From Mycobacterium kiyosense (GTDB lineage: Bacteria; Actinomycetota; Actinomycetes; Mycobacteriales; Mycobacteriaceae): DNA of 64,000 bases. Where the stretch lies: NCBI GenBank assembly GCA_021654635.1, contig AP025179.1, positions 682,001-746,000 of the forward strand, written 5' to 3'. The position numbers and the translations under genes are program-made. The stretch's first letter is position 1. Each line of letters starts with the position of its first letter. Positions 3,922 to 51,802 of the stretch are shown one piece after another. A model generated the notes under the pieces. It ran no database searches. It had not been told where the DNA came from and was given only the letters and a program-made list of their open reading frames with translations.

Positions 3922-3997
3922 ACCCCTGTGTCTCTCTTTTTGCTGGCGGTCGGCGGCCGTCCCCCACCATAGCCGCCGCCGATCGGGCGAGGACGGG

Positions 3998-4459: not shown

Positions 4460-4533
4460 GGCCGCTGATGCTAGCCGTTACGCGTTACCCCCAGACGCAG
4501 CCACGCGGGCCCGTTGCCGATCGGTGACCTGCG

Positions 4534-17546: not shown

Positions 17547-17562
17547 CGGGCCAGCCTAGCCT

Positions 17563-18719
17563 TCAGCGCGACAACGGATCGTGCTGAATGCGTTCCGGGG
17601 GGGCGCCTTTGGCCATCAGGGCGGCCTTGGTCGCCTGCACCATCGCCGGTCCGCCGCAGATCAGGATCTGCCGGTCACCCCAGCTGCCGTACCGGGCGAC
17701 GACGTCGGGCAGCCGTCCGGTTTGGCGCACGTGCAGTCCGCGGGGCGGGGACACGTCGGGGTAGTCGGCGGCCCAGGACGGGTCGCTGTTGTACTCCGAT
17801 ACCGGCGACACCGACAGCCAGGGGTTGTGTGCCGCGATCTGCCACAGGGTCCGCAGGTCGTAGAGCTCGCACGGGTAACGCGCGCCGAAGAACAGGTGCA
17901 CCCGCGGATTCTCGGCGAAGCGACTGAGATCCATGATCAGGGCTCGCAGCGGCGCCAGGCCGGTGCTGCCGGCGACCATCAGCACGTCGTCGCCGTCGCG
18001 GTCGACGTGGAAGCCGCCGTGTGGACTCGACAACCGCCACCGGTCGCCGGGCCGCGTTTCGGTGACGACGGCGTTGCTGACCAGTCCGCCCGGCACCACC
18101 CGCACGTGGAACTCGATGCCGCGCGGGTCGGCGGGGATTGCGGGGGACAGGTAGCGCCAGCGGCGGGGCACTGCGGGACATGCACGTTGACGTACTGCCC
18201 GGGGTGATAGTCCAGGGGGCGGTCCAGGCGCAGCCGGACCACCGCGAGATCGCGCGACACCCGGGTGTGCTCGACGACGGTGCCGTCCCACCAGGCGGGC
18301 GAGTCGTCGGAATCCGCCGCCCCGCTCATCACCCCGACGAACAGGTTCAGCGACTGCTCGGCCGCCGCGGCAACGGCATCGGTCCAGGCGCCGGCCAGGT
18401 GAGCGCGCAGTGTTGCGTACAGTGCCCGGCGCAGCGTCTGGTAGTGCGCCGGCCGCACCCCGTATTTGCGGTGGTCGCGACCCAGCTGCGCCAGGAAGGC
18501 CACCGGCTGCTCGGCGCGCTGATCGACCAGCTCGCCGTAGAGCCAATGCATCGCGTGCGCGAAAGCGGCTCGCTGGCTGTGCATTTCGGGTGGGAACAGG
18601 TCGCGCACCGAGGTGTCGATGGCGAACCAGTGGGTGTAGAAGCGGTGCACCAGTTCTTGGTCCTCGGGGCCGAAGGCGTCGCGCAGCACCTGCAACGCAT
18701 GCCGATCCTCGAGGCTCAC
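17563..18719 (-). pseudogene. Flavohaemoglobin-type oxidoreductase (Rv0385-like), one frame break
   Basis: GTG 18719 starts a globin domain (VSLEDRHALQVLRDAF; haem region around RDHRKYGVRPAHYQTL). It leads to the FAD domain (DYHPGQYVNVHVP, then RRWRYLSPA) and the NAD(P)H domain (GSTGLAPLRALI and ILICGGPAMVQATKAAL). One C is missing on the coding strand at 18165-18168, which splits globin/FAD from the rest. Restored length is ~386 aa, like M. tuberculosis Rv0385, a type II flavohaemoglobin. Such proteins join a haem globin to a flavin reductase. The FAD motif RYLS differs slightly from the usual RxYS. It is divergent from clpB. Confidence 0.8.
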
Positions 18720-18810
18720 GGACGCCGATTCTAGGCCGGGCCGCTGGGCCGCGGGCGCGCGCCGACAGCGGAGAGCCAGGTCGGGGGCAGGCCCCGGCGA
18801 ACCGGCGGAA

Positions 18811-18831
18811 GTTGAGCGGAATAGACTCAAC
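18811..18831 (+). promoter_or_regulatory. HAIR-like HspR operator upstream of clpB
   Basis: Arms GTTGAGC and ACTCAAC flank a 7-nt spacer, 11 of 14 matches to CTTGAGT-N7-ACTCAAG. A -35-like TTGACG begins 2 nt after it (18833). It lies ~57 bp before clpB, as expected for an HspR target in actinobacteria. Confidence 0.75.
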
Positions 18832-18887
18832 CTTGACGCGGTTCTACAACGCGACAAGATTTTATTAGCTACTAGAACGGAGGTGTC

Positions 18888-21434
18888 GTGGACTCTTTCA
18901 ACCCGACAACCAAGACCCAGGCGGCTCTGACGTCGGCGCTGCAGGCGGCATCAGCCGCGGGCAACCCCGAGATCCGGCCCGCTCATCTGCTGATGGCGCT
19001 GCTGACGCAAAACGACGGCATCGCCGTGCCGCTGCTGGAAGCTGTCGGGGTCGAGCCCGCCACTATCCGCACCGAGAACCAGCGCCTGCTGGAGCGGTTG
19101 CCCCAGATCAGCGGCTCCAGCTCGCAGCCTCAGCTGTCCCGGGAGTCGCTGGCGGCGATCACCACCGCACAGCAGCTGGCCACCGAGATGGACGACGAGT
19201 TCGTCTCCACCGAGCACCTGATGGTCGGGCTGGCCACCGGTGACTCCGAGGTCGCCAAGCTGCTCACCGGCCACGGCGCCTCCCCGCAGGCGCTGCGGGA
19301 TGCGTTCGTCAAGGTGCGCGGCAGCGCCCGCGTCACCAGCGCCGACCCCGAGGCCACCTACCAGGCGCTGGAAAAGTACTCCACCGACCTGACGGCCCGC
19401 GCCCGGGAGGGCAAGCTCGACCCGGTCATCGGGCGCGACAACGAGATTCGGCGGGTGGTGCAGGTGCTGTCCCGGCGCACCAAGAACAACCCGGTGCTCA
19501 TCGGCGAACCCGGCGTCGGCAAGACCGCGATCGTGGAAGGCCTGGCCCAGCGGATCGTGGCCGGCGACGTGCCGGACAGCCTGCGCGACAAGACCGTCGT
19601 CTCCCTCGACATGGGCTCGATGGTCGCCGGCGCCAAGTACCGCGGTGAGTTCGAGGAACGGCTCAAGGCCGTGCTCGACGACATCAAGAACTCGGCCGGG
19701 CAGATCATCACGTTCATCGACGAACTGCACACCATCGTCGGCGCCGGCGCGACCGGCGAGGGCGCGATGGACGCCGGCAACATGATCAAGCCGATGCTGG
19801 CCCGCGGCGAACTGCGACTCGTCGGCGCCACCACACTCGACGAGTACCGCAAGTACATCGAGAAGGACGCCGCGCTGGAGCGCCGCTTCCAGCAGGTGTT
19901 CGTCGGGGAGCCGTCGGTGGAGGACACCGTCGGCATCCTGCGCGGCCTCAAGGACCGCTACGAGGTGCATCACGGCGTGCGCATCACCGACTCCGCGCTG
20001 GTCGCGGCGGCCACCCTGTCCGACCGCTACATCACCGCGCGGTTCCTGCCGGACAAGGCGATCGACCTGGTGGACGAGGCCGCCAGCCGGTTGAAGATGG
20101 AGATCGACTCCCGGCCCGTCGAGATCGACGAGGTCGAGCGGTTGGTGCGTCGCCTCGAGATCGAGGAAATGGCGCTGTCCAAGGAAGAGGACGCAGCCTC
20201 CAAGGAACGGTTGGAGAAGCTGCGCGCCGAACTGGCCGACCAGAAGGAAAAGCTGGCCGAGCTGACCACCAGGTGGCAGAACGAGAAGCACGCCATCGAC
20301 GCCGTCCGCGAGCTCAAGGAACAGCTGGAGGAGTTGCGCGGCGAGTCCGAGCGCGCCGAACGTGACGGCGACCTGGCCAAGGCCGCCGAGCTGCGCTATG
20401 GCCGTATCCCCGAGGTGGAGAAGAAGCTCGAGGCGGCGGTGCCGCAGGCCGAGGCTCGCGAGAACGTGATGCTCAAGGAAGAGGTCGGTCCCGACGACAT
20501 TGCCGACGTGGTGTCGGCCTGGACCGGCATCCCGGCCGGCCGGCTGCTGGAGGGTGAGACGGCCAAGCTGCTGCGCATGGAGGACGAGCTGGGCAAGCGC
20601 GTCGTCGGGCAGCGCAAGGCCGTGCAAGCGGTGTCCGACGCGGTACGGCGGTCCAGGGCCGGTGTTGCCGACCCGAACCGCCCCACCGGCTCGTTCCTGT
20701 TCCTCGGCCCCACCGGTGTCGGCAAGACGGAGCTGGCAAAAGCGTTGGCGGACTTCCTGTTCGACGACGAACGCGCCATGGTCCGCATCGACATGAGCGA
20801 ATACGGCGAGAAGCACTCGGTGGCCCGGCTGGTCGGGGCGCCGCCCGGTTACATCGGCTACGACCAGGGTGGTCAGCTGACCGAGGCGGTGCGCCGCCGG
20901 CCCTACACCGTGGTGCTGTTCGACGAGGTGGAAAAGGCCCACCCGGACGTGTTCGACGTGCTGCTGCAGGTGCTCGACGAGGGCCGGTTGACCGACGGCC
21001 AAGGCCGCACGGTCGACTTCCGCAACACCATCCTCATCCTGACCTCGAACCTGGGGTCCGGCGGCACCGAGGAGATGGTGATGGCCGCGGTGCGCTCGGC
21101 CTTCAAGCCGGAGTTCATCAACCGCCTCGACGACGTGCTGATCTTCGAGGGACTCAACCCCGAGGAGCTGGTGCAGATCGTCGACATCCAGCTGGCCCAG
21201 CTGGCCAAGCGGCTCGCTCAGCGGCGCCTGCAACTCGAGGTGTCGCTGCCCGCCAAGCAGTGGTTGGCCCAGCGCGGCTTCGACCCGGTATACGGGGCCC
21301 GTCCGCTGCGGCGGCTGGTCCAGCAGGCGATCGGGGACCAGCTGGCCAAGATGCTGCTGGCCGGCGAGGTGCACGACGGCGACGTGGTGCCCGTCAACGT
21401 CAGCGCGGACGGCGACTCGCTGGTCCTGGGCTGA
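18888..21434 (+). CDS. clpB: Disaggregase ClpB
   Basis: An 848-aa Hsp100 protein, the same length as M. tuberculosis ClpB. Order: Clp N-domain (two repeats, ~1-145), AAA-1 with Walker [10 protein letters not shown] and Walker [11 protein letters not shown], the coiled-coil middle domain (~400-520), AAA-2 with GPTGVGKTE and [15 protein letters not shown], and the C-terminal D2 small domain. It extracts proteins from aggregates together with DnaK/DnaJ. GTG start behind GGAGG. It is regulated with the dnaK operon through the upstream HAIR site and followed by a strong hairpin. Confidence 0.98.
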
Positions 21435-35123: not shown

Positions 35124-36404
35124 TTGACCGAGCGGCAGGAGACCGGCGCGCAGGATCGCCCAGCGGCTGAGGGTGCTACGGCGATCTGGTCCGTCGAGAA
35201 ACCGACGGAAGCGCCCGCGACAGCCGAACCGCTCGAGCCGCAAGACCCGGAACCGGAAAACGAGGCCGGGCCGAGATTGCTGCTGCTGGGCACCGACGAC
35301 GCCGGCGAGGAGTTGACCGTCGCGCTGCAGCGGCTTGGCGCGGAGGTAATGACCGCCGACGCCGAGACGCTCACCGACGCCGAGGAGCTCACCGCGGTGC
35401 TGGTTAGCCTGCAACCTGACTTCGTGGTGACGCGCACCGATGCGGTCGTGTTCGGGGCCCTCGAAGCGTTCGAGTCGGCCGAGGGCCAAGACGTCGAGTG
35501 GGTACCGAGTTTGCGTGCGGCCCGGCTCATCGCCGACCGCGAGGGCCTGCGCCGCCACGCCGCCGATGAGCTGGGCCTGCCGACTGCGCCGTTCTGGTTC
35601 GTCGACTCGCTGGCCGAACTGGAGGCGGTGGCCGCGCACGCCGGCTTCCCGTTGCTGGTCAAACCGGTCGCCGGTCCGAGCGGGCAGGGCCGATCGGTGG
35701 TGCGGACGCCCGAGGAGGTCGCGCCGGCCTGGGAGCGCGCGGGCCGGGGTGGCCGGGTGTGGGCCGAGACAGTGGTCGATGTCGAGTTTTTTGGTCACGC
35801 TGATCGTTGTCCGCAGCGAAGGCCCGTCCGGGCCGGTCATCGAGTTCTGCAGCCCGATCGGTCATCGCAGCAACGGCGCCGACGGGCTGGAGTCCTGGCA
35901 GCCTCAGCAAATGAGCACCGCCGCGCTGGACGCGGCCAAGTCGATCGCCGCGCGCATCGTTAAGTCCTTGGGTGGGCGCGGCGTCTTCGGCGTCGAACTG
36001 ATGATCAACGGGGACGAGGTGTACTTCAGCGAGGTCGCTGCGGGTCCCAGCGACAGCGCCTGGGTGACGCTGCGTAGCCAGCGGCTTTCGGCGTTCGAGT
36101 TGCAGGCCCGGGCGATTCTGGGGGTAGCGGTGGACACCATGATGGTGTCGCCGGGCGCCGCCCGGGTGTGATCACCCGTGGCCCCTCCGCGCCGGGCGCC
36201 GCGCCCAGCGGCGATTTGCTCGCCGCGGCCCTGGCCGTGCCCGAGAGCGACGTGCGGGTGTTCGATCCGGCCGCCTCGGCTGGCTCGGATGCGGCGCCGC
36301 CCAGCTCGGGGCTGGCGCTGGCCACCGCGCCCGAGTTGGCCGTCGCCCGGGACCGCGCCCGGCAGGTCGCTGCCAGGCTGAATGTGCGAGACTCGCGCGC
36401 GTGA
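35124..36404 (+). pseudogene. purT: Formate-dependent GAR transformylase PurT, two frame breaks
   Basis: ATP-grasp protein. TTG 35124 is chosen because GGAGGGGG lies 8 nt upstream. Frame one holds the N-terminal Rossmann-like domain (RLLLLGTDDAGEELTVALQRLGAEV) and the ATP-grasp start (GFPLLVKPVAGPSGQGRSVV). Removing one T from 35787-35792 joins the second frame (FLVTLIVVRSEG; GVFGVELMINGDEVYFSEVA). A second break at 36166-36170 (GTGTG) separates the end (VITRGPSAP... NVRDSR). Restored length is ~425 aa (M. tuberculosis PurT, 419). It formylates GAR using formate and ATP in purine synthesis. Its last bases overlap the rhodanese start. Confidence 0.85.
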
Positions 36405-39783: not shown

Positions 39784-39931
39784 GGTCCTCCTTGGAGTCG
39801 CATCGGGTGACTGCGGCGCAGTTACACCGTACGTCGCCGCGCCGAGTGCCGTCTGCAGGCGGGTGCGCTCATATGGCCCGGTCCGGCCGGGCGGCGACGC
39901 GATTCGCGGCGGACTTCGCCGACACGGTAAC

Positions 39932-39950
39932 TTAGGCATGCCTAACGAAA
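39932..39950 (+). promoter_or_regulatory. DtxR/IdeR-like palindrome before the P450 gene
   Basis: The core TTAGGCATGCCTAA is a perfect 14-bp palindrome. Read as a 19-mer on the minus strand, it matches 14 of 19 bases of the IdeR box TTAGGTTAGGCTAACCTAA. It ends 12 bp before the P450 TTG start and lies ~150 bp from the divergent ndhA start. The half-site spacing differs from a classic iron box, so a related regulator such as MntR is possible. Confidence 0.45.
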
Positions 39951-39962
39951 GGGTGTGACACG

Positions 39963-41516
39963 TTGACCGCTGCGGAAGAGCCGCTGTATCGGCCGTTCGA
40001 GCCGGCGGGCGAGGACACTCACGCGGACCTGCCGCCGGTGATCGCGCCCGTCGTGCCGGATGAGGGCCGGTTGTCCAGCGGCCGGCTCAGCGTGGTCGGT
40101 GCGCTACGGGAAGATCCGCTGTGGCCCACCCGGCTGTCGGTACCCACCCTGCTGGGCGCCGTACGCGGGTACGGGCGTCCGTTGCCGTTGCCGCCGGGAC
40201 CGGCCGGGCTGCCGGTCGTCGGCTCCTTCTTCGAGCTGCGCCGCGACCCCTTCGAGCTGATCAGCCGCGGCGCCGCCACTTACGGCGACATGTTCCGCAT
40301 CCCGATGCCGCTGCTGGACATGGTCGCGGTCACTCACCCGGACCTGTTGCGCGAGTTCATGGACGACGCCGACGGCCGGTACAGCCGCTACGACCTGCTG
40401 GGTCCGCTGCTGAAGGTGATCGGCGCCAACAGCATCATGCTGGAAGGCCCGAAATTGCGGGAGCGCCGCAAGATGCTGATGCCGATGTTCACCCGTCGGC
40501 ACCTGACGACGATGGCCGACGTGTTCTGCAGCGAGTTCGACGAACGCCTCGCCGGCTGGTCGTCGTTCGCCGGGACCGGTCAGCCGGTGGACCTGCAGTA
40601 CGAGATCTCGCTGATGACGTTGAAGGTCTACCTGAAGACGTTGTTCTCCGCCTCGATCGGGGAGCAGGAGTTGCGCCGGCTCGACGCCGACATGCGGGCC
40701 ATCACCGGACTGCTCGGCCTGACCACGCTGATGGTCCCGTTCCCCAATCTCCTTCCGCGCAAAGGCCGTTCGAGTCTGCTGCCGGCGTTGGCACGGATCT
40801 ACCGGCTGGTCGGCCGGCTGATCAAGGACCGCAAGAAACACCCGTCGGAGACGCCGGACTTCCTGGACACTTTGCTCGACGCGCGGTACGAGGACGGCTC
40901 GCCGATCAACCGGGCCGACCTGGCGGCCGAGATCGTCGGCCTGCTCGGCGGCGCCTACGACCCCACCGGCGCGGCCCTGACCTGGACGGTGGCCCTGCTG
41001 CTGAAGAACCCCGACAGCCTGACCAGGCTGTACGGCGAGGTCGACGCGCTGAACGGCGCGTTGCCCAACTTCGACGACGTGTCGCGGCTGAGCTGGACCA
41101 AAGCGTGCTTCGACGAGGGTCAGCGCATGCAGGGGCACCCGTTCTTCCCGCGGTTCTGCATGGCCGACAACGAACTCGGCGGCTACCGGCTGCCGAAACT
41201 CACGCTGGTGGGGGCCTCGATGTCGGTGGTGCACCGCGACCCGCGCTGGTGGCCGGAGCCCGACCGCTTCGACCCGATGCGGTTCCTGGACCCCGAGCAG
41301 GTGCGGGCGCGGCCGAGGCTGGCGTTCATGCCGTTCAGCTCCGGCCAGCATTTCTGCCTCGGCACCACCATGGCCTATATGGCGGCGCAGTTCTTCCTGA
41401 CGATGCTGTTCCAGCGTTTCCGGCTCAGCGTGCCCGACGGCTGGCAGCCCGAGCCGCAGTTCACCTTCTCGGTGATGGTGAAGGGCGGTCTGCCGGCGGT
41501 CTTGACCCGCGCTTGA
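39963..41516 (+). CDS. Cytochrome P450
   Basis: A 517-aa P450. The haem-thiolate loop is FMPFSSGQHFCLGTTMAY (Cys ~residue 464). The ExxR motif is in FDEGQRMQG. The I-helix reads GLLGGAYDPTGAALTW, with Pro replacing the first Thr of the usual D-T-T. The first ~60 residues are an acidic/Pro extension before PLPPGPAGLPVVGSF, making it longer than most bacterial P450s. TTG start with GAAAGGG upstream. It is convergent with the TPP-enzyme operon and carries an IdeR-like site at its start, so it may belong to the same system. Substrate unknown. Confidence 0.88.
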   Translation: MTAAEEPLYRPFEPAGEDTHADLPPVIAPVVPDEGRLSSGRLSVVGALREDPLWPTRLSVPTLLGAVRGYGRPLPLPPGPAGLPVVGSFFELRRDPFELISRGAATYGDMFRIPMPLLDMVAVTHPDLLREFMDDADGRYSRYDLLGPLLKVIGANSIMLEGPKLRERRKMLMPMFTRRHLTTMADVFCSEFDERLAGWSSFAGTGQPVDLQYEISLMTLKVYLKTLFSASIGEQELRRLDADMRAITGLLGLTTLMVPFPNLLPRKGRSSLLPALARIYRLVGRLIKDRKKHPSETPDFLDTLLDARYEDGSPINRADLAAEIVGLLGGAYDPTGAALTWTVALLLKNPDSLTRLYGEVDALNGALPNFDDVSRLSWTKACFDEGQRMQGHPFFPRFCMADNELGGYRLPKLTLVGASMSVVHRDPRWWPEPDRFDPMRFLDPEQVRARPRLAFMPFSSGQHFCLGTTMAYMAAQFFLTMLFQRFRLSVPDGWQPEPQFTFSVMVKGGLPAVLTRA

Positions 41517-41587
41517 TTTATCCCGCGAGTGTGACGATCCCGACGCACGCGCGGCGGGTTGCGACGTGAAATTCGCTGTCGGCCAGG

Positions 41588-44523
41588 CTAATCCGCTGGT
41601 TTCCACTCGTCCAGCTTGCCGCGGACGACGGCGCGGGTCACCTCGCCGAACGTCGCGGCGCCCGGCCGCCCCTCTTTCGACCACGCCACGAAGAACCCGA
41701 TCACCTGTCGCCAGTGCTTGCGCCCGGCCTGCACCGGTGCGTCGTTCAGCACACAGCGTGCGTCGATCAGGTAGGGCCGTGGCGCGCCGATAGCCTCTTG
41801 GAAGGCGGCCCGGAAATCGCGAAGTGTGTCGACGCGGCGCGACTTGATCTCGACGGATGCGGCGTACTGCGCGAAGTTGATGTCCGGGATAGCCGAGCCG
41901 CGGTCCGGCCAGCCCATGATCTCGCTCTCGAACTTGATCGCGGCGAGCGCCAGATTGTTGACGACGACGAACACCACCGGTTTGGTGACGTTCACTGCCG
42001 ACTGAATCTGGCTGAGTGTCACCGAGGTTCCGCCGTCGCCGGCCACCGCGACGGCCACCCGCGTGTCGGTGTTCTTCGCCGCCGCGATCGCCGCGGGCAC
42101 CGCGAAGCCCATGGTCCCGAACGACGCCGACCAGATACTGCGCGTCATCGACGTGAGGTACCGGTACACCCACAGCGTATTCACGCCGACGTCCGCGCAG
42201 ACCGTGCTAGAGCCGTCGAAGTCGGCCAGCTCCTCATCGATCGCCCGGGTCAGCCGCGAGGCCCGCAGCGGGGCCCGTTCGGCCCATCGGCTGCGCCTGC
42301 TGCGGCGGGGCGCCCGGGTAGCCCGTTGGGCACGTGGGGGTTCGCGCAGCGCACCGACCATCGTCTCCAAAGCCGCCATCGCGTCGCCCAGCACGCCGAT
42401 ATCCCGATCTCCCAGGCGCAGCATCGAATTGGGGTCGACGTTGACCACGATGGTTCGGCCGGCGGCGCCCAGATCGAACGCCGAGCCCCGGTTCGACACC
42501 CCCCACCAACAGCAGCACGCCGGCCTTGGCAACGTCGTGGTACGCCCGCAGATCGCCCGAGCCGCCGACCCTGCCGTGCGCGCGCAGGCCAGGGTCGTCG
42601 ACCACCGAATCGCCACCCCATCGTCAGATGCACCTTGCAGTCCAGCGCAGCGGCCAGTTCGGCGAGCAACTCCGAGCAACCCGCGGCGCCGCGACCCGCG
42701 ACGATGGCCACCCGTTCGGCGTCCCGCAGCGCGGTGATCGCCTCGGTGACCGCCGATTCGTCGGGCGCCGGTGGTCGGAAAGCAGCGGGTTGTCCTGCAG
42801 CGAAACCGATTTCAGGCCACGCTGAATTCAGCGCCGTGCCCCGCACCCGCAGATGCACCACGCCCGACCCCGGCGCGGCCGCGGCGGCGCAGGCCCGACG
42901 CACCGTGGCGGCGGCGGTCGCGGGGTCCTCGACGAGATAGGTTGCCAGGCTCACTTCGTCGAGCAGTCGACCGGCGTCGAGTTGCCAGCTCTGCGTTTCC
43001 ACCGTGACAACCAGGATCGGGGCATGATCGAGTGCCGCATCGTAGATCCCGTTGAGCTGCAACAGAAGTGCGGTCCCGCTGGCCACCACGGTTGCCGCTG
43101 ACACGCAGCCCGCCTTGCGCAGCGCGGCGGCACTCATCGACGGTGCCTGCGCGTTGGCGCTGCGCTGGGCGGTGTCGAAACCGGGCAGCAACGGTGCGCA
43201 GAATTGGCTGATCTGCACCGGCGCCGCCAGATTGGCGTCCAGGCAGCGGGCCAGCGAACGTTCGCCGGGTCGCGGCTCGCGACGAGTTGTCACCACCTCC
43301 CGAGGCACTGCGATGATGTCTTGCTGCAGTCCGAACGCGGTCCCCAGTTTGCTTAGGCCGCTGAGCTTTTCGGCGCGGTCGACACAGCGGATCTGCACGT
43401 CGGCGTCCGCGCTGACCAACGTGGCGATTTCGGCGACGAACTGGCCCAGCTGGGCATGGTCGGTGACGACCACGCTGCGCGTATCGCCGGCCAGGGCGGC
43501 GCCGATCCCCAACGGCAGTGCCGCGCTGGGAATGCCCGCCATGCTGGCAGCCTCATCGAGGTCACTGAACACGGTTTCGGCGACGTTCTCGAGGGGTTGC
43601 GGTTGGGAGTCCAGGATCGTGTGCAGGGTCGCTTCGACGTCACAGACGACCTGCCTGATGTAGGGCAGCCGTCTGCTGGTGAGGCGACGGTCGGTGAGCT
43701 CCAACAGGTTCGCGTGTGCCGGCACGCGTTGGTTGAGTAGCGGGCTGACGCGCCCCACCACCAGCACGTCGCCGGCGCTGAGTACACCGGTGTCGCGGAC
43801 ATCGGACAGTGGGCAGGCCAGGCGTTGCGAAAGCTGCTGAGCGAGTTGGGTTTGGCCGACCTCGGCACAGGACAGCACGATGGCCAGATCGTCGGATTCC
43901 AGGAACTCGGCGACCAAGCCCAGCTCTTCCTTGCTCGCCAGTCGCGGCTCCGGCGGCTTGGGGACGTGCCAGCCGGTGTCCGCCGCGCTGATCGGAGCGT
44001 AGAGCACGTCGCCGGGGATGGCCACATGGCATGCGGTGGACTCGTGCATTGCCAGCACGGCCGAACGGGCCAGGCGCTCAAACTGACTGGTGGCCTGGAT
44101 CTGTACCGAGGACGCGGTGCACGGCTTGAACAGTGCTTCGGAGTCGATCTCCTGGAACGCGTCCCGGCCGATACTGGCAACCGGGACCTGACCACTGATG
44201 GCCAGCAACGGGACTCGCCCGAGATACGCCTCGTAGGCGCCCGCGACCAGGTTGGTGGCGCCCGGCCCGGCGGTGCCGAAGCACACCCCCAATCGCCCGG
44301 AAGCCTTGGCGTAACCGACCGCCATCAGGGCGGCGGCCGTCTCATGCCGGGTGGTGACCACCCGTATCTCGGTGCGCTGGCTCGCCGCGTGCACCAACGA
44401 ATTCACCGACTCCGCAGGCATTCCGAAGATGTACTCGACACCGAGCGCGATCAGGTAGTCCACCAGCTCGTCGGCGAACCGCCGCCGCCCGAGCGCATTG
44501 GAGAACAGGTGCCGGTTATGCAT
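41588..44523 (-). pseudogene. Giant thiamine-diphosphate enzyme, two frame breaks
   Basis: Restored length is ~977 aa; typical family members have 550-600. The N-terminal PYR domain (~1-180) holds the cofactor Glu in TTRHETAAALMAVGYAKASG (Glu61), FGTAGPGATNLVAGAYEA, and a middle domain. A second PYR-like stretch (~480-580, ASGTALLLQLNGIYDAALDH... ILVVTVE) lacks the Glu. A middle domain and the PP domain follow, with the cofactor motif GDGGTSVTLSQIQSAV... NN (~828-857). Extra Gs on the coding strand (42616-42619; 42499-42504) split it into three frames. The ATG overlaps the HisC-like stop by 8 nt. It resembles acetolactate-synthase/decarboxylase enzymes; the reaction is unknown. Confidence 0.75.
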
Positions 44524-45517
44524 TGACGCGACTATGCGTTGTCAGCGACCCGATGACGGCATCCACGGATGCTTCGGATTGCACGGTGATCCGCACGCCC
44601 AACCCCGGATACTCCCGCACCAGGATGCCGTCGGCGAGCACTTGCTGCGCCAGCGCGTGCGAGTCCGGGGTGGGCACCCACACGAAGTTTCCCTGCGAGA
44701 CGACCCCGCTGAACAGGCCGTGCCGAAGCAGGAAGGCTTCCAGCCGTTTCCGGCTGCCGATCACGCGGGTTACCCGCTCGCGTAACTGCCGCTGATGCCG
44801 CAGCGACTCCGTGGCCGCGGTGATGCCGACCGAGTTGACCGCGTATGTCGGGACGGCGGCGCGGACCCGCGCGGCCAGTGCCCCACTGCTGAACACACCG
44901 AAACCGATCCGCAGCCCGGCCAGCCCGTAGGCTTTGGAGAAGCTCCGCAGCACCACCACGCCGTCCATATCGGTCACCAGTCGGCGCACAGCGCCGTCCG
45001 GCAGTGTCTCGTCGAACTCCGCGTAGGCCTGATCCACAACCAGCAGAACCGGTTTCGGCAACAACCGCCGGAACTCGACAAGCTCGTCCACTGTCACCGC
45101 GGCGCCGCTCGGGTTGTGCGGCGTCGCGATGATCACCTGCCGCGTGGACTCGTCGACTCGAGCCAGAATGGCCTCGAGCGACTGACCGCCAGGCGGGTCG
45201 CTGACCGCCCCGACCGGGAGACCCCCGGCCCGCGACACCAGGCTCGCGTACTCGTCGAACGTGGGTGTTCCGAATACCGTGGCGCCCTTGGCTTCCGCAT
45301 GCAGCACCGCGTCCAGCACGCCGACACTGCCGGGTCCGACGACCACCCTGTCCTGCGGAACACCGTGCAGCTCGCCGATCTGCGCCGTCAACTGCATGAC
45401 GCACTCGTCCTCGGGATAACAGCGGATCCTGTCCGCGCTGGACTCGAGGATGCTGCGCACCTGCGGCAGCGGGTCGAACGGCAGCTCGTTGCGCGACAGA
45501 TCGAAATCGATTCTCAT
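44516..45517 (-). CDS. HisC-like class I/II PLP aminotransferase
   Basis: A 333-aa fold-type I enzyme. It has the N-terminal SRNELPFDPLPQV, VVGPGSVGVLDAVLHA, ATPHNPSGAAV (substrate/PLP), LLVVDQAYAEF (Asp to PLP N1), and the lysine motif LRSFSKAYGLAGLRIGFG (Lys ~residue 200). This is the histidinol-phosphate-aminotransferase group. A biosynthetic operon with UbiA and a TPP enzyme, far from his genes, argues for a dedicated substrate rather than histidine synthesis. It starts inside the UbiA stop (ATGA) and ends over the TPP gene start. Confidence 0.85.
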   Translation of the reverse strand: MRIDFDLSRNELPFDPLPQVRSILESSADRIRCYPEDECVMQLTAQIGELHGVPQDRVVVGPGSVGVLDAVLHAEAKGATVFGTPTFDEYASLVSRAGGLPVGAVSDPPGGQSLEAILARVDESTRQVIIATPHNPSGAAVTVDELVEFRRLLPKPVLLVVDQAYAEFDETLPDGAVRRLVTDMDGVVVLRSFSKAYGLAGLRIGFGVFSSGALAARVRAAVPTYAVNSVGITAATESLRHQRQLRERVTRVIGSRKRLEAFLLRHGLFSGVVSQGNFVWVPTPDSHALAQQVLADGILVREYPGLGVRITVQSEASVDAVIGSLTTHSRVNA

Positions 45518-46611
45518 GGCACGTCGAAGTCTTCGGTTCTTCTGGTGTCCAGCCGCAGCCGGTCGGTGAGCAACATGATCGCGATGCCGACGACTACCAC
45601 CGTCACCGACACAACCGAGATCCGCTCGATCAGGACGAGGGTCGACAGGTAGCCGACGGAGACGAACATGTCGTCGCGCAGCATGTCGTTCGACGATTTC
45701 TGGTCGACGGTGTGCACCAGACGCCAGGCCTGAAAACAGGCCACCGGCAACCAGATCAGGGCAAGAAGGTATTTCGGAGCGAGAAAGCCGAACACTACCG
45801 GGAGTACGACGGCGCCGTAGACCACGACCGTCGCCACCGCCGCGATGATCGCCGCGCGGCGCCGAGTGGCGCTCAGCGTCGCCGACGTGGTCACGTTGAC
45901 TCGTTTGTCGCCTTCGTAATCGGGCACGTTCTTGGTCAGACCCTTGGCGCAGAACCAGCCGAACAGGTAGAGCGCCAGCGCGCAGTACTCGCGATTGGTC
46001 AGCACCTGCCACTTGAAATCGGATGCCAGCACCGCGCTCACGTACGGGTAGGCCACCGCGTTGGCGAAGTACAGAATCCCGATCCGGGGCCGCGCCTTCA
46101 TCCGCAAGGGCCGGAACGAATACTGTTGGCAGCCAATCAATGCCAGGAAAGTCAGACCCGCGAACCACGGGTTCACCAGCAGGGACAGCAAGAAGTTGAA
46201 GGCGGCCAGCAGATGGGCGTGCCGCAGCAGCCGGTCGCGGCCGTAGCGGCTGAGTTCGTATACCCGCGACGGGATGTTCTCGTTGTCCTCGCTGATGTCG
46301 GTGTAGATGTTGTACAGGTTGGCGATCGCGGCGATGTGATAGGACACCACCATTCCCACCGCGAGCGCCAGCGGTGAGACGCCTCCGGCGACGACGCTGG
46401 CCAGGTAGAAGCCCAACATGCCCGGAATGCACGTCCTGGGGCGGGAGAACGCCACGAATTGTGCGAGCCGCCACGCGGGTGGCAGCGCGATGCCGGGGGA
46501 TGTCTGGACCCACGCCAGCCGCTGTTCGCTGCTCATCCGCAGGAATCCGGGCAGCGAACTCGGTTGTGCCGGTTCGGTCCCGGTGCCGGACAACAGTTGA
46601 CTCTTCTCCAT
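45514..46611 (-). CDS. UbiA-family prenyltransferase
   Basis: A 365-aa polytopic membrane protein with ~8-9 helices. First Asp-rich motif: NLYNIYTDISEDNENIPSR (~residue 97). Second: NVPDYEGDKRVN (~227). These bind the Mg-prenyl diphosphate in UbiA enzymes. They attach isoprenyl chains to aromatic or other acceptors in the membrane. The N-terminal ~45 residues are cytoplasmic. It is not MenA by context, and its acceptor could be a product of the neighbouring HisC-like and TPP enzymes (inference). The start is 3 nt after the FtsX stop and the end overlaps the aminotransferase ATG. Confidence 0.85.
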   Translation of the reverse strand: MEKSQLLSGTGTEPAQPSSLPGFLRMSSEQRLAWVQTSPGIALPPAWRLAQFVAFSRPRTCIPGMLGFYLASVVAGGVSPLALAVGMVVSYHIAAIANLYNIYTDISEDNENIPSRVYELSRYGRDRLLRHAHLLAAFNFLLSLLVNPWFAGLTFLALIGCQQYSFRPLRMKARPRIGILYFANAVAYPYVSAVLASDFKWQVLTNREYCALALYLFGWFCAKGLTKNVPDYEGDKRVNVTTSATLSATRRRAAIIAAVATVVVYGAVVLPVVFGFLAPKYLLALIWLPVACFQAWRLVHTVDQKSSNDMLRDDMFVSVGYLSTLVLIERISVVSVTVVVVGIAIMLLTDRLRLDTRRTEDFDVP

Positions 46612-46614
46612 TGG

Positions 46615-49119
46615 TCACTCCACTTCCAGCGCGTCCACGATCGTCGACTTCGCGGCCCGAGACGCGGGTAGCAATGCCCCGCTCCAACAAAGGATCACCG
46701 CCACCAGGACGGTGAGAAGGTCGAGAGGGGAGAACGAATACCGCACCGTGATGGCGGTCACCGAACTCATGATCAGCGTGCCCAACCGGTGCACCACCAC
46801 GCTGGTCAGCATGCCGAGCACACCGCCCAACAGCGCAATGCTGGTGGCCTCCACCAGAATCGACTTCGTCACGTAGCGTCGCGAGGCACCCATGGCGCGC
46901 AGCACGCCGATCTCCCGGGTGCGCTCGATCACCGAGATCATGAACGCGTTGAACAGCGCCATCGCCGCCAGCAGTGCGACGATCCACTGCACGAAGACGG
47001 CCAGGGATCCGATCTGGGCGACTGCGCCCTTGCCCGAGTCCACTGCGTCCTGACCGCTGAATGCGTACAGCCCCCTTGCGGCAGCGATCTTTTCGAGTTG
47101 GTTCAGGATTGCGGGCGCATTCTTCGGGTTGTCGACGTGGACTTCCAGGTAGGTCGCCCCGTCGCGCTGGAACCATGACTTCATGTGATCCAGCGACATC
47201 GCGATCATGCCGCGCTCGGTGGTGAGATAGTCGACCACGCCGAGGATGGGCACCGCCTGCTCGCCGGAGGGGGTGCTCAGCGTCAGTTTGTCGCCGACCC
47301 CGCGGTGCAGGTGTCGGCTGAGTTGGCGGGAGATCACCACGCCGTCACCGGCTTCGACCTGGGCCCGCACCGACTTGTCCATGGCGGCGAAGGCGGGTGT
47401 CACGGTGCCGGGGTCGGAGCCCACCACCAGTACCCGGTCGCTGCCGACGTTGACGTAGGCGTACTGGACGGGCTTCACGGCGACGACGCCCGGGATGGCC
47501 CGAACTTCGCCGTCGGTGCCGTGGGGAATCAGCGGACTGATCGGGACGACGTCCTTGGACGCGGCGGACAGGTACATGTCCGCACCGGCCAGCGAGGAGA
47601 AGAAGCCACCGGTCGAGTCGACCACGTCGGTCAGCACGCCGCTGGTCACACTGCCCAGTGCCACGGCGATTGTGACGATCATCAGGTTCGCCCAGGTCCG
47701 CTTGGCCGACGCGGTCATGGTCGAGCGACTGACCTGACCGCTGGGCCCCATCAGCGCCGCGATCCGGCTACCGAGTACCACCAGCGTGGGCCCCAGCGCC
47801 CAACACAGTGTCAGGATGCCAGCCAGCACCAAAATGCCTGCGGCGAAAGTTTTTTCGTCGTGCAGCCGGGTTGCGGTGAAAAACGCCAGCGCCATCAGCA
47901 GCACGCCGACCGCCACGCCGGCCCGGTGCGGTTTGGTTCGATCGTCGCCCAGGCTCTCCAGCTCGACCGGGCGCATCGCGGCGATGGGCGAAGCCCGGAA
48001 GACCATCATCGCCGGCCAGGCGGCGCCCAGCACGCAGGCCACCACGCCCAAAGCGACCACCACGGCGATCGCGCTGCCCGGGAAGAAGTAATCCGGCTTG
48101 ACGTCCACCGACTGCAGCATCAGCGGGGGCAAACGCTTGATCGCGAGGTAGCTCATCGCGGCACCCAGCGGCGCGCCCAGCAGTCCGCCGAGCAAGCCGA
48201 GCAGTGTCACTTCGGCCAGCAGGTCGCGGGCCAGGTCACCGCGTTTGGCGCCGAGCGCCCGCAGCGTGGCGATCATCGGGCGGCGTTGCACCACAGCCAT
48301 GTTCATCGTGTTGAACACGATGAACATCGCGACGACCAGCGCGATCGACCCGACCAGCAGCAACGTGTCGCGGGTCAGCGAGACCGAGTTGTCGGTCTGG
48401 GCAACCCGGAACTGCGGTTCGGCCACCACTGCCCGGTGGTCGACCACCCGCACCAGGTCGGTGCTCAACGCGTTGAGGTCGGCGCCGGGCTTGGCCACCA
48501 CGAACACCGACGTCACCCGGCCGGGCTGGTGTAAGAGGTTCTGCGCCAACGGAAGTGGGACGATCACGTAGTCGCCGGCGTTGTACTTCTCGGCGAGGTC
48601 GCCCTTGGGCACGAACACCACGTTGACGCGGACGCCGTTGACCTCGACCTGGCCGCCCGGCGCCGTTCCGAGGCCGGGACCGGCGATAGCCCCGTCCGCC
48701 AGCGAGCCGTGCGACTTGTCCTGATCCGCCTGCTGCACCAGCTCGTTGCCCACCCGGTTGTCCAGCACCCGGATGTCCGGGCCGACACCCAAAAGCGTTG
48801 TGCCGGAACGGGGAGTATTCACCGTGGCTTTCACGATCGGCTCGGCCGCGGCCACCCCGTCGACGGCGCGCAGCTGCGCGACCAGCGAGTCGGGCATGCC
48901 GCTGTCGGCCGCGCCGGTGACCTCGAAAGCGGCCTTGCCGTAGAGGTCTTCGGACATCGTGGCCACCGACTTGGTCAGCGAGCTGTAGATGCCGGCGATG
49001 GCCACCAGCAGCGCGGAGGCGATCATCACCGCAGCCACGCAGCTCAGCGATCGCTTCCAGTGCGCAACCGCGTACCGCAGGTTGAGCAGTTTGAAGCGGA
49101 CGGCCGCCGAGGCGATCAT
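46615..49119 (-). CDS. ABC transporter permease, FtsX/MacB type
   Basis: An 834-aa permease with two FtsX modules. The first helix is at ~20-42. A large extracytoplasmic domain follows. Helices lie around RDTLLLVGSIALVVAMFIVFNTMNM and after RRPMIATLRALGAKRGDLARD. A second set ends with VIERTREIGVLRAMGASRRYV and a final helix before SRAAKSTIVDALEVE. Such permeases, paired with a LolD/MacB-type ATPase, export lipids, peptides or other products, or signal across the membrane. ATG 49119 overlaps the ATPase stop (ATGA). In this operon it is the obvious export module. Confidence 0.88.
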   Translation of the reverse strand: MIASAAVRFKLLNLRYAVAHWKRSLSCVAAVMIASALLVAIAGIYSSLTKSVATMSEDLYGKAAFEVTGAADSGMPDSLVAQLRAVDGVAAAEPIVKATVNTPRSGTTLLGVGPDIRVLDNRVGNELVQQADQDKSHGSLADGAIAGPGLGTAPGGQVEVNGVRVNVVFVPKGDLAEKYNAGDYVIVPLPLAQNLLHQPGRVTSVFVVAKPGADLNALSTDLVRVVDHRAVVAEPQFRVAQTDNSVSLTRDTLLLVGSIALVVAMFIVFNTMNMAVVQRRPMIATLRALGAKRGDLARDLLAEVTLLGLLGGLLGAPLGAAMSYLAIKRLPPLMLQSVDVKPDYFFPGSAIAVVVALGVVACVLGAAWPAMMVFRASPIAAMRPVELESLGDDRTKPHRAGVAVGVLLMALAFFTATRLHDEKTFAAGILVLAGILTLCWALGPTLVVLGSRIAALMGPSGQVSRSTMTASAKRTWANLMIVTIAVALGSVTSGVLTDVVDSTGGFFSSLAGADMYLSAASKDVVPISPLIPHGTDGEVRAIPGVVAVKPVQYAYVNVGSDRVLVVGSDPGTVTPAFAAMDKSVRAQVEAGDGVVISRQLSRHLHRGVGDKLTLSTPSGEQAVPILGVVDYLTTERGMIAMSLDHMKSWFQRDGATYLEVHVDNPKNAPAILNQLEKIAAARGLYAFSGQDAVDSGKGAVAQIGSLAVFVQWIVALLAAMALFNAFMISVIERTREIGVLRAMGASRRYVTKSILVEATSIALLGGVLGMLTSVVVHRLGTLIMSSVTAITVRYSFSPLDLLTVLVAVILCWSGALLPASRAAKSTIVDALEVE

Positions 49120-49790
49120 GCGTGTTCGACGACCTTGCCGTCGCGCATCACGATCTCGCGGTCGGCCGCGGCCGCGATGTTCGGGTCGTGCGTGACCATG
49201 AGCACCGAGCACGCGCCGTCGTCGGCGATCTTGCGCAGCAGCGCCAGGATGTTGCGGCCGGACTCGGAGTCCAGGTTCCCGGTCGGCTCGTCGGCCAGCA
49301 CCACGCCCGGCTTCATGATCAGCGAGCGGGCGATTGCGACGCGTTGCATCTGACCGCCGGACAGCTGCGAGGGTTTGTGGTCGATGCGGTCGCCCAGCCC
49401 GACCATCGCCAGCAGTTCGCAGGCGTCGTTGCGGGCCTCCTTGATCGAGGACCCGTCCAGAACCCGGGGCATCGCCACGTTCTCCCAGGCGGTCAGGGTG
49501 GGCAGCAGGTTGAAGAACTGGAAGATGAACGACACCTTGCGGCGGCGGTACTCGGACTGCTCGTCGTCGCTCTTGCGGGACAGCTCCTCGCCGTCGACTT
49601 TGATGGAGCCCTCGTCGGGCCGGTCGATGCCGCCGATCAGGTGCAGCAGCGTGCTCTTGCCGGAACCGGACTGACCGGTGATGGCGACCAGCTTCTCGTT
49701 GCCCAGCGTGAGGGTGACGTTGTCGACCGCCTTGACCAGTTCCTGGCCCCGTTGATAGGTCCTGCTCACCGCCGCGATCTCGATAAGCAT
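49116..49790 (-). CDS. ABC transporter ATP-binding protein, LolD/MacB type
   Basis: A 224-aa ATPase: Walker A GQSGSGKST (~residues 38-46), Q-loop FIFQFFNLLPTLTAWENV, signature LSGGQMQRVAIAR, Walker B GVVLADEPTGNLD, and the H-loop in VTHDPNI. It drives the FtsX permease encoded next. It is the first gene of the five-gene operon and sits ~50 bp downstream of a strong IdeR-box match, so the entire set is likely iron-controlled. Confidence 0.93.
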   Translation of the reverse strand: MLIEIAAVSRTYQRGQELVKAVDNVTLTLGNEKLVAITGQSGSGKSTLLHLIGGIDRPDEGSIKVDGEELSRKSDDEQSEYRRRKVSFIFQFFNLLPTLTAWENVAMPRVLDGSSIKEARNDACELLAMVGLGDRIDHKPSQLSGGQMQRVAIARSLIMKPGVVLADEPTGNLDSESGRNILALLRKIADDGACSVLMVTHDPNIAAAADREIVMRDGKVVEHA

Positions 49791-49840
49791 GCAGCAGCCC
49801 CTGAGGTGTAAGTGACGAAGGTAAAGGCCGTCCCGGACGC

Positions 49841-49859
49841 GCAGGACAGGCTAACCTAA
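49841..49859 (-). promoter_or_regulatory. Probable IdeR iron box upstream of the ABC-UbiA-HisC-TPP operon
   Basis: GCAGGACAGGCTAACCTAA matches the consensus TTAGGTTAGGCTAACCTAA at 15 of 19 positions, with one half-site and the whole centre intact. It lies between the monooxygenase stop (49870) and the ATPase start (49790), with its near edge ~50 bp upstream of the start. Iron-bound IdeR would be expected to repress the operon here. This is a sequence match only. Confidence 0.65.
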
Positions 49860-49869
49860 CACACCTGCG

Positions 49870-51003
49870 TTACTTGCCGGAGCGAAATTGCCACTCCTGT
49901 AAACGAGTGGTTCGGCGACTGAAGACCCAGTTCGGGGCCAGCGTCATGCCTGTTTTGCGGCACCAGACCAGCACCGGGTTGCTCCACTGGCCGGCGATCC
50001 CGATGTTGTGCGATTCGCGGGCGATGCGCTGGGTTCGGGGCCGGCGCAGCCGGTCATAGCGGTGCAGCGCCGGTTCGATTTCGGTGCGGTCCTGCACCGG
50101 TGCCAGCAACGCGCAGAGGGTTGCTGCGTCTTCGAGCGCCTGGTTGGCGCCCTGGCCGAGGTTGGGTGACATCGCGTGCGCCGCGTCGCCGATCAACACG
50201 GTGCGGCCGTGCACGTAGGACCGCAGCGGGCCGTCGAGCTCCTCGCTGTGGGTGTAGTGCACGGCTTCGGGCTCGGTGGCGTCGATCAGCTCGGCGATCG
50301 GCTCGTGCCAGCCGCCGAACAAGGACCGGACCTCGTCGAGGGCGGCGGCGCCGGTTTCGTTGCGCGCGCTGGTCACCACGGCGAACCAGTAGACCCGGCC
50401 GTCCTTGAGCGGCACCAGACCGAACCGTTGGCCGCTGCCCCAGGTCTCCCCGCCGGCTCCCACGGGTACCGGCCGCGCGGTTATGGCCCGCCAGACGCCG
50501 TAGCCGCTACGCCGGGTCGGACGGTCCTGCGGCAGGCTGGCGCGGACGCGGCTGCGGATCCCGTCGGCGCCGACGATCAGGTCGGCTTCGGCGTGGTGCC
50601 CGTCGTCGGTGTGGACGCCGTCCGTTCCGGCTTCGGCTACTCGCTGTCCCCAGTGCACGGAGCCTGCACGCAGGGTGGCCAACATCGCCGCGTGCAGCTC
50701 GGTGCGGTCGACGGCGCGCAGGTTCTGATACGTCGTCGGGGCGAACGTGACCAGAAACCGGCCGTTCGGCTTGCGGATGCCCGACTTGGTGTAGGGGGGT
50801 TCGTCGGCGCTTATCGCCCGCACGGCAGAGCCCAGACCGAGCTCGTCGAGAGCGCGAAAACCGTTGCCGAATATGGATAATCCGGCCGGAGCCGGTTGTG
50901 AATCGGCCGCTCGCTCCAGTACGGAGACATCCCACCCGGCGCGCTGCAGTCCGCTGGCCACCGCGAGTCCGGCGATTCCCGCGCCCACCACGACAGCTTT
51001 CAT
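49870..51003 (-). CDS. FAD-dependent aromatic-type monooxygenase
   Basis: A 377-aa group A flavoprotein hydroxylase. GxGxxG is in VVVGAGIAGLAVASGL (~residues 4-19), the DG motif in LIVGADGIRSRVRASL (~155), and GD in VLIGDAAHAMSPNLGQGANQALEDA (~270). It hydroxylates an aromatic or similar substrate using NAD(P)H and oxygen. It lies upstream of the ABC operon on the same strand, with the iron box between, so it may be separately transcribed. Substrate unknown. A ~200-bp gap with no convincing gene lies on its 5' side. Confidence 0.88.
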   Translation of the reverse strand: MKAVVVGAGIAGLAVASGLQRAGWDVSVLERAADSQPAPAGLSIFGNGFRALDELGLGSAVRAISADEPPYTKSGIRKPNGRFLVTFAPTTYQNLRAVDRTELHAAMLATLRAGSVHWGQRVAEAGTDGVHTDDGHHAEADLIVGADGIRSRVRASLPQDRPTRRSGYGVWRAITARPVPVGAGGETWGSGQRFGLVPLKDGRVYWFAVVTSARNETGAAALDEVRSLFGGWHEPIAELIDATEPEAVHYTHSEELDGPLRSYVHGRTVLIGDAAHAMSPNLGQGANQALEDAATLCALLAPVQDRTEIEPALHRYDRLRRPRTQRIARESHNIGIAGQWSNPVLVWCRKTGMTLAPNWVFSRRTTRLQEWQFRSGK

Positions 51004-51205
51004 GTGCCGAGAGCGTAATCAGTGGTTGGAGGTGCGCTGGCTCAGGGGCGCCTGCTGAGCTGCGGGTGCGGGCAGGACGACTGCCCGGCCGGGGCCACGG
51101 CCACCGCGCAGGACGCGGCCGAACTCTCGGCGGACTGGGTCCCCCGTTTACGGCCCTCCGGAACCCCTGCCCGACGACCCGCCGTTTTAGTGGACGGCCC
51201 GCCCG

Positions 51206-51802
51206 CTAAGTGGGCCAGGAACTCGCGGTGGTCCGCAGGTTCGCGTTCGGACCGGTGCAGAAGTCCGAGTTGGTTCCGGCCAGCAGGACGTAATAGCCCT
51301 CGCCCTTGCGACCGCTGAACGGGGGATAGGTCCACCCGCTGTTACACATCGACGTCGGCGTGCCAACCGAAGCCTTGCGCCAGCTGGATTTGGCGCAGGC
51401 GTTCAGCGCGTCGACGTCGGAGACAGCGCTCTTGGCGATCACCAACATCCCGCCGCCCCACTGCCCGTCGTTGCGACGATAGGCCCGCGCCCCGAACCCG
51501 GCCCCGTTCACCTGGCACCCCAGCATCCGTTGCAACGGCTGGAAGGGCGCGGCGAGGTCCCGATTGCTGACACCCGTTGCCGCATTGAAGAATTGGGCCG
51601 CGTCCGACCCGTCGACCTCCTGGATATTGGGGTCGTGGAAACTGAACAGCTGCTGGCCGATCGCCCCGCCGCTGCCCCCGCCGCCGATCACCGGGCCACC
51701 GCCGGTGGAGTTCATCGGGGGCAGCGTGGGGTCGGCCGTCGCAGCGGGCGCCATCGTCACCAGTACCGGCAGCAGCGCAGCGGCAAACACAAGAGCTTTC
51801 AT
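51206..51802 (-). CDS. Secreted protein, Rv0398c-like
   Basis: A 198-aa protein with a classical signal peptide (MKALVFAAALLPVLVTMAPA, cleavage near ATADP). A Gly-rich linker follows, then a globular domain with four Cys (MLGCQVNG, NACAKSSW, SMCNSGWTY, DFCTGPN) that may form two disulfides. It has the size and position of M. tuberculosis Rv0398c, near fadE7. No enzymatic motif is seen. The start is 11 nt from the fadE7 stop, suggesting cotranscription. Confidence 0.75.
   Translation of the reverse strand: MKALVFAAALLPVLVTMAPAATADPTLPPMNSTGGGPVIGGGGSGGAIGQQLFSFHDPNIQEVDGSDAAQFFNAATGVSNRDLAAPFQPLQRMLGCQVNGAGFGARAYRRNDGQWGGGMLVIAKSAVSDVDALNACAKSSWRKASVGTPTSMCNSGWTYPPFSGRKGEGYYVLLAGTNSDFCTGPNANLRTTASSWPT

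Follow-up and report, generated by a model that had tools for sequence, protein, structure and literature searches.

A putative iron-regulated mycobacterial gene cluster related to the zigralone pathway

The closest described system is the zigralone (zig) cluster of Micromonospora zingiberis PLAI 1-1 (Kakumu and Helfrich, JACS June 2026, PMC13307353). In the main text of that paper, ZigE turns a prenylated beta-methyl-indole-3-pyruvate into a 4-quinolone, and deletion of zigD makes a shunt product accumulate and diverts the flux to an indole-carbaldehyde. We analysed a related gene set in a stretch of 64,000 nucleotides (hereafter the window, C1:682001-746000) of the single-contig, 6.35 Mb genome of Mycobacterium kiyosense. 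Sequence comparisons indicate that this set encodes a mycobacterial version of the zigC/zigE type of pathway, one that carries iron boxes and brings an exporter of its own. On balance, we think that it is an iron-regulated biosynthesis-and-export cluster for a tryptophan-derived prenylated 4-quinolone. We observe the gene content, its co-inheritance, the homology with ZigC and ZigE, the catalytic motifs and the conservation of the boxes, and from these we infer the substrate, the product, its export and the response to iron.

Intervenolin of Nocardia is a 2-prenyl-4-quinolone. The alkylquinolones of Pseudomonas, including the Pseudomonas quinolone signal (PQS), are also 2-substituted 4-quinolones, but with an alkyl instead of a prenyl chain, and they are made from anthranilate by pqsABCDE, a route unrelated to the pathway of the window. 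PQS complexes Fe(III) (PMC11768086). The geranylated 4-quinolones of Pseudonocardia have the 2-prenyl-4-quinolone skeleton that would be expected for the product of the window too; they differ in their geranyl chains, some of the natural ones lack the 3-methyl group, and the available text of the source links no gene cluster to them (PMC7731028).

In the window, genes encoding an ABC ATPase, an FtsX permease, a UbiA prenyltransferase, a HisC-like aminotransferase and a thiamine pyrophosphate (TPP) enzyme follow each other on the minus strand, and a cytochrome P450 gene on the plus strand lies tail to tail with the last of them (Table 1). Order and strands are those given by the initial annotation, and the Pfam scan, which covered nine sequences (39963-51802), agrees with it. 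The coordinates also bear out the tight junctions it had listed: ATGA overlaps in ABC/FtsX and UbiA/HisC, a gap of 3 nt between FtsX and UbiA, and an overlap of 8 nt between HisC and the TPP enzyme. The motifs it had pointed out are visible as well, those of the P450 (haem loop) and of the HisC-like enzyme (the stretch with the pyridoxal-phosphate lysine) in the translations, and the Asp motifs of UbiA (D105/D109 and D231/D235) in the alignment, where they are invariant in 15 out of 15 sequences. The nearest solved relative of the HisC-like enzyme is 4r2n, a ‘Putative phenylalanine aminotransferase’ (155 bits, versus 98 for the next one). Since the UbiA shares 92% identity with its M. vicinigordonae counterpart, the strain of the window is a close relative of this species. 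We found no match in a search for plasmid DNA, nothing in Rfam at gathering thresholds within 38-52 kb, and no sigma-70 promoter pattern within 39.7-50.1 kb.

A locus of M. zingiberis PLAI 1-1 (L016 in our set) corresponds in gene content to the zig cluster and encodes a class III aminotransferase, a polyprenyl synthase, a UbiA, a TPP enzyme and a DUF6875 protein, and also methylase-, cyclase- and P450-like genes, recognised by eye or by match (the model of the Pyr4-like cyclase was run on locus L012 only). The window shares with it a UbiA (ZigC), an atypical tandem TPP enzyme (ZigE), an aminotransferase and a P450, and its product, too, would be expected to be prenylated and derived from tryptophan. 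Over 356 aa, the UbiA of the window shares 34% identity with its L016 counterpart (E 1e-47), and the pieces of its TPP enzyme reach 44% identity over 217 aa and 38% over 239 aa with the L016 protein. In intact relatives, the tandem form is homologous to ZigE along the whole length and keeps the PYR1 glutamate and the GDGG of the second half. The UbiA tree, whose root is arbitrary, splits 23 rows, including the window, Nocardia and L016, from 10 others with high support (99/99), and Mycobacterium and Nocardia form a supported group (100/99). Matches to both pieces of the TPP enzyme were found in 13 out of 26 UbiA loci; the enzyme is present in 12 of the 16 loci on the 23-row side of the tree and in 1 of the 10 on the other side.

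The two gene sets also differ. The aminotransferase of the window is of class I/II (PF00155), whereas ZigA belongs to the unrelated class III (PF00202). The window has one P450 instead of two or more, and its cluster is without methylase, polyprenyl synthase (present in L007, L009, L011 and L016), Pyr4-like cyclase and DUF6875. What it adds is an ABC/FtsX exporter, a flavin monooxygenase and IdeR-like boxes; some species have a PPE gene as well. Because we found no methylase, cyclase, second P450 or DUF6875 in it, we did not class the set as a zigralone cluster. With no methylase, terpene cyclase or polyprenyl synthase in the cluster, the product must be a different one. The initial annotation had called the system a candidate undescribed one, which does not hold for the enzymatic core, published in June 2026 as the zigralone pathway. 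Searches of open-access PMC papers, judged by title and start of the abstract, showed no mycobacterial version, and neither Mycobacterium nor Nocardia is mentioned in the main text of PMC13307353. In this literature, what appears to be new is the branch in mycobacteria, along with its regulation and its PPE partner.

The gene set is rare. We found its UbiA in 5 out of 396 genomes of the genus, own genome included, at E<=1e-30, and in 3 out of 198 in a smaller draw at E<=1e-20. The TPP enzyme (E<=1e-60) is present in 4 out of 297 genomes of the genus, all four of which are also positive for UbiA; across the family it was found in 5 out of 401 genomes, i.e., the own one plus four from a single other genus (of which three were fetched). 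We then compared six mycobacterial loci, all found through UbiA: the window, L049, L050, L005, L006 and L031. The ABC, FtsX, UbiA, HisC-like, TPP and P450 genes are present in all six, so the neighbourhood check suggested earlier for the UbiA-HisC-TPP trio turned out in its favour. The P450 faces the operon in four of the loci and follows the TPP enzyme in the same direction in L006 and L031. The cluster adjoins ndh-type genes in the window, L049/L054 and L050; in L005 and L006 it is flanked on one side by a molybdenum-cofactor-like gene together with an Rpf-like one and on the other by a saccharopine-dehydrogenase-like gene (names given by eye from the translations), and it has different upstream genes in L031. 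Its presence at three chromosomal sites indicates that the unit has probably moved. Together, these comparisons support the view that the gene set is a rare and co-inherited unit in mycobacteria, putatively for biosynthesis plus export.

The flavin monooxygenase gene is less constant. It adjoins the ABC gene in four of the six loci (window, L049, L050, L031), and in L031 it overlaps a PPE gene by 4 nt and runs into the ABC gene. Within this comparison it is absent from L005, and L006 has a different one, 36% identical. Its orthologues with at least 64% identity (P0142-P0154; the next protein has 51%) share five contigs, identified as the same by their length, with matches to UbiA or to the TPP enzyme. 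The names of its matches are generic among the 120 listed of 986. We dropped an identification as PqsH: the nearest solved proteins are given as 3rp6 flavoprotein monooxygenase, tropone 2-monooxygenase, and no PqsH sequence was compared.

We searched for iron boxes by counting mismatches, out of 19 positions, to the IdeR consensus TWAGGTWAGSCTWACCTWA, and used the reversed motif as a control. Within 5 mismatches, the window has sites only at 39927/39932, before the P450 (GTAACTTAGGCATGCCTAACGAAA, 39927-39950), and at 49841, at the head of the operon (TTAGGTTAGCCTGTCCTGC, minus strand, 49859-49841), just where the initial annotation had seen iron-box-like sequences. The reversed motif has no site in the window at up to 4 mismatches and three at 5, and in 4 Mb simulated with a first-order Markov model, one site had 4 mismatches and 21 had 5. 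The boxes are conserved in the relatives. At the head of the operon there are 4 mismatches in L049, 3 in L050, 2 and 3 in both L005 and L006, and 3 and 4 in L031. The P450 boxes have 4 mismatches in the window and in L005 (TTAGGTAACCCTAACGAGA, related to the box of the window) and 5 in L049 and L050, which keep the core TTAGGC[A/G]TGCCTAA. The scan showed no P450 box in L006 and L031, where the P450 may need no promoter of its own. In the window and the other five loci together (163 kb), 11 sites have at most 4 mismatches, all just upstream of the first genes of the cluster or of the P450, against one for the reversed motif. At 5 mismatches there are 6 sites and 7 for the reversed motif, and this similar frequency means that such sites count for nothing alone; the P450 boxes of L049 and L050 are thus not significant by themselves. 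The non-mycobacterial loci (519 kb) have one site with at most 4 mismatches and one for the reversed motif, and L054 (12 kb) has none and one, respectively.

As a positive control, we scanned the own genome at up to 3 mismatches and found 9 sites, versus 2 with the reversed motif. In five of the eight loci read around these sites, neighbouring genes look by eye like classical IdeR targets: one PPE gene next to a his-type gene, one gene next to a pheA-type gene, another two PPE genes, and a nonribosomal peptide synthetase with a formyltransferase. The remaining three have no evident link to iron. PPE genes also occur in the cluster itself: a PPE-PPW gene heads the operon behind paired boxes in L005, L006 and L031, and its proteins have no match in the window, L049 and L050. 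Over 441 aa, the L031 protein has 58% identity with the PPE of the own genome whose gene carries a box and lies next to the his-type gene. PPE37 (Rv2123) is reported to be under the control of IdeR (PMC5784249), and the cluster resembles this regulon in that its boxes match the same consensus and in that three relatives have a PPE-PPW protein encoded first in the operon. The conservation of the box between species, as a phylogenetic footprint, supports a predicted control of IdeR type, and in L005, L006 and L031 the gene order seems to tie a PPE protein to one small-molecule pathway.

Table 1. Features of the cluster in the window and of the PPE-PPW genes in related loci
Feature	Position	Strand	Evidence
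IdeR-like box before P450, two overlapping registers, 5 and 4/19 mismatches	39927..39950	.	Motif scan
Cytochrome P450, 517 aa, TTG start	39963..41516	+	PF00067 E 2.3e-73; found in 6/6 mycobacterial loci compared
ZigE-type tandem TPP enzyme	41588..44523	-	PF02776 + PF02775 on two large pieces; two frame changes near 42.5-42.6 kb
HisC-like class I/II aminotransferase	44516..45517	-	PF00155 E 1.2e-37
UbiA prenyltransferase, ZigC homologue	45514..46611	-	PF01040; 34% over 356 aa to L016; tree
FtsX/MacB-type permease, 834 aa	46615..49119	-	PF02687 in two stretches, PF12704
ABC ATPase, LolD/MacB type	49116..49790	-	PF00005; LolD model 245 bits, below its cut-off 308
IdeR-like box before ABC-FtsX-UbiA-HisC-TPP operon, 4/19 mismatches	49841..49859	-	Motif scan
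Flavin adenine dinucleotide (FAD) monooxygenase, proposed tailoring enzyme	49870..51003	-	PF01494; directly upstream of ABC operon
PPE-PPW gene heading operon	L005 5091-6542; L006 5220-6716; L031 2784-4241		PF00823 + PF18878; behind paired IdeR-like boxes

We propose the following pathway. The HisC-like aminotransferase would convert tryptophan to indole-3-pyruvate, and UbiA would transfer a polyprenyl chain onto the indole. The tandem TPP enzyme would then open the indole oxidatively between C2 and C3, re-close the ring on the side-chain carbon and release the keto acid, giving a 2-prenyl-4-quinolone, which the P450 and the flavin monooxygenase would oxidise further. The ABC/FtsX pair would export the product when iron is scarce, and repression of IdeR type at each transcription start would switch the set off when iron is plentiful. 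The initial annotation had predicted a prenylated or amino-bearing molecule made and exported under iron scarcity. By analogy, the aminotransferase would strip the amino group from tryptophan, which leaves the prenylated part standing and makes an amino-bearing product unlikely. The rest of the prediction fits the co-inherited biosynthesis-plus-export unit and the conserved boxes, with the iron response itself read from them.

If the flavin enzyme hydroxylated C3, the product would be PQS-like, and since PQS forms Fe(III) complexes, the iron boxes and the PPE gene would then be understandable. The product may be an iron-binding, PQS-like quinolone. We consider unlikely, but worth stating, the wider proposal that some mycobacteria have a further iron-scavenging lipid besides mycobactin, i.e., a 2-polyprenyl-3-hydroxy-4-quinolone that would be produced by the indole-expanding TPP enzyme, exported by ABC/FtsX, handled at the surface by the PPE-PPW protein in three of the six loci, and controlled throughout by IdeR. 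The 50 rows (VIA) listed in the structural comparison cover residues 415-977 only and barely test the first half of the TPP enzyme. Some Foldseek rows of its model span at least 940 columns, but with a root-mean-square deviation of 17-21 A, and so they do not demonstrate a packing of PYR1 on the second PP domain. We also dropped a carbazole-type condensation (the CqsB/Nzs chemistry), as there is no cyclase among the nine scanned sequences.

Several observations weigh against a quinolone pathway of this kind. The TPP gene is broken in the window assembly. The whole intact relative P0022 has an identity with ZigE of only 32%, and 26 out of 31 TPP sequences, among them all those named Mycobacterium or Nocardia, have Gln in place of the glutamate of the second half of ZigE (the alignment, A3, includes L016 and 30 of the 34 proteins P0022-P0055, leaving out the shorter P0035, P0049, P0050 and P0051). 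The UbiA tree does not mark the pathway cleanly: the UbiA of L016 is on a long and weakly placed branch. Kocuria L019 has a TPP enzyme, yet its UbiA groups with nine Streptomyces UbiA lacking one, and L008, L010, L018 and L020, all on the ZigC side of the tree, have no TPP match. The two P450 matches in L016 are only 26-28% identical. In the nine sequences to which the scan of the window was limited, there is no ZigD-type methylase, ZigF/Pyr4-like cyclase, DUF6875 or polyprenyl synthase, and the shunt product of the zigD deletion means that ZigE itself may need a methylated substrate. Finally, the Nocardia-type loci have no box with at most 4 mismatches.

The ‘very large TPP enzyme’ of the initial annotation has the TPP domains and an intact relative of 977 aa, but it is not one open frame in the window assembly. 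P0022 maps on the window in three successive frames, with residues 1-636 and 636-674 at 100% identity and 674-977 at 99.7%, and the two frame changes raise the possibility of a dead cluster in this strain. We think this quite unlikely. In the other matching genomes the gene has no inner stop, P0022 is fully identical over its first 636 residues, and the remaining genes of the cluster read in a single frame relative to L049. A purT-like gene of the same window (35124-36401, plus strand) is also split in three successive pieces, with two frame changes relative to the intact gene in L054. The same double change in two genes makes assembly indels likelier than decay.

The early steps might also proceed without ring expansion, with the TPP protein acting as an acyloin synthase or decarboxylase to give a prenylated derivative of indole or aryl-pyruvate (acyloin, aldehyde or acid). 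General TPP families of the acetolactate synthase and pyruvate oxidase type give the best matches, the enzyme departs from ZigE at the glutamate of the second half, and L008 (Nocardia higoensis) combines HisC-UbiA-P450 and an exporter without a TPP match within 20.9 kb. The cluster also lacks a methylase, and the loss of ZigD diverts the zig flux to an indole-carbaldehyde (PMC13307353). Still, we regard this route as somewhat unlikely given the unusual tandem form that the enzyme shares with ZigE along its whole length and the Pseudonocardia quinolones lacking the 3-methyl group (PMC7731028). A pathway for a menaquinone- or ubiquinone-like redox lipid would account for the UbiA family, for the UbiH-type match of the flavin monooxygenase, and for the polyprenyl synthase and geranylgeranyl-reductase-like protein of the Nocardia transvalensis relative. 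It is very improbable, because the genome encodes three other UbiA proteins, one of which scores far better, the five NCBIfam matches are all to other UbiA-family models and all under the cut-off, with no MenA/UbiA equivalog match, and a UbiA found in so few genomes of the genus is not expected in core respiration.

The function of a quinolone is a separate matter. A plausible view, to which we give a little less credence than to its opposite, is that the compound serves in competition, blocking the respiratory quinone sites of neighbours under iron stress rather than carrying iron; this is compatible with the quinolone chemistry. At 2 ug/mL, zigralones 2 and 3 inhibit Staphylococcus aureus (PMC13307353), geranylated quinolones have antibacterial activity and aurachins inhibit NADH oxidation (PMC7731028), and the cluster has a dedicated exporter. 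On the other side are the PPE-PPW genes heading half of the operons, one of them similar to the box-bearing PPE described above: they indicate iron uptake rather than attack, although attack remains compatible with them.

Loci of other genera show further combinations. In L008 (8826-17156), HisC, UbiA, P450, DUF6875, ABC and FtsX genes precede a DXS gene (17190-19067), and the product is perhaps a prenylated tryptophan compound without ring expansion. In L007 (Nocardia transvalensis), genes for a polyprenyl synthase and for a flavoprotein that weakly matches geranylgeranyl reductase (2338-4780) lie upstream of ABC-FtsX-HisC-UbiA-TPP, which suggests a partly saturated chain. The nine Streptomyces UbiA loci L021-L029 each have a P450 match just before UbiA and no ZigE-type match; L021 and L028 have an acyl-ligase-like gene and L028 also a UbiE-like methylase, all recognised by eye. 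By gene content, these loci are a separate conserved Streptomyces set. In Kocuria (L019, 10001-15171), a divergent UbiA that groups with this set is paired with a ZigE-type TPP enzyme, and in Myxococcales (L010, 9866-11626) a distant UbiA is followed by a gene of 184 aa, START-like by eye.

Our analysis predicts prenylated 4-quinolones in the genus Mycobacterium, with a synthesis under iron control, in a class of compounds that has antibacterial and iron-binding members. The mycobacterial TPP enzymes are natural homologues with which to study the newly found reaction of ZigE, and the cluster may help to account for the geranylated quinolones found in related actinomycetes. The link of a PPE protein to a single small-molecule pathway would make the function of PPE proteins testable.

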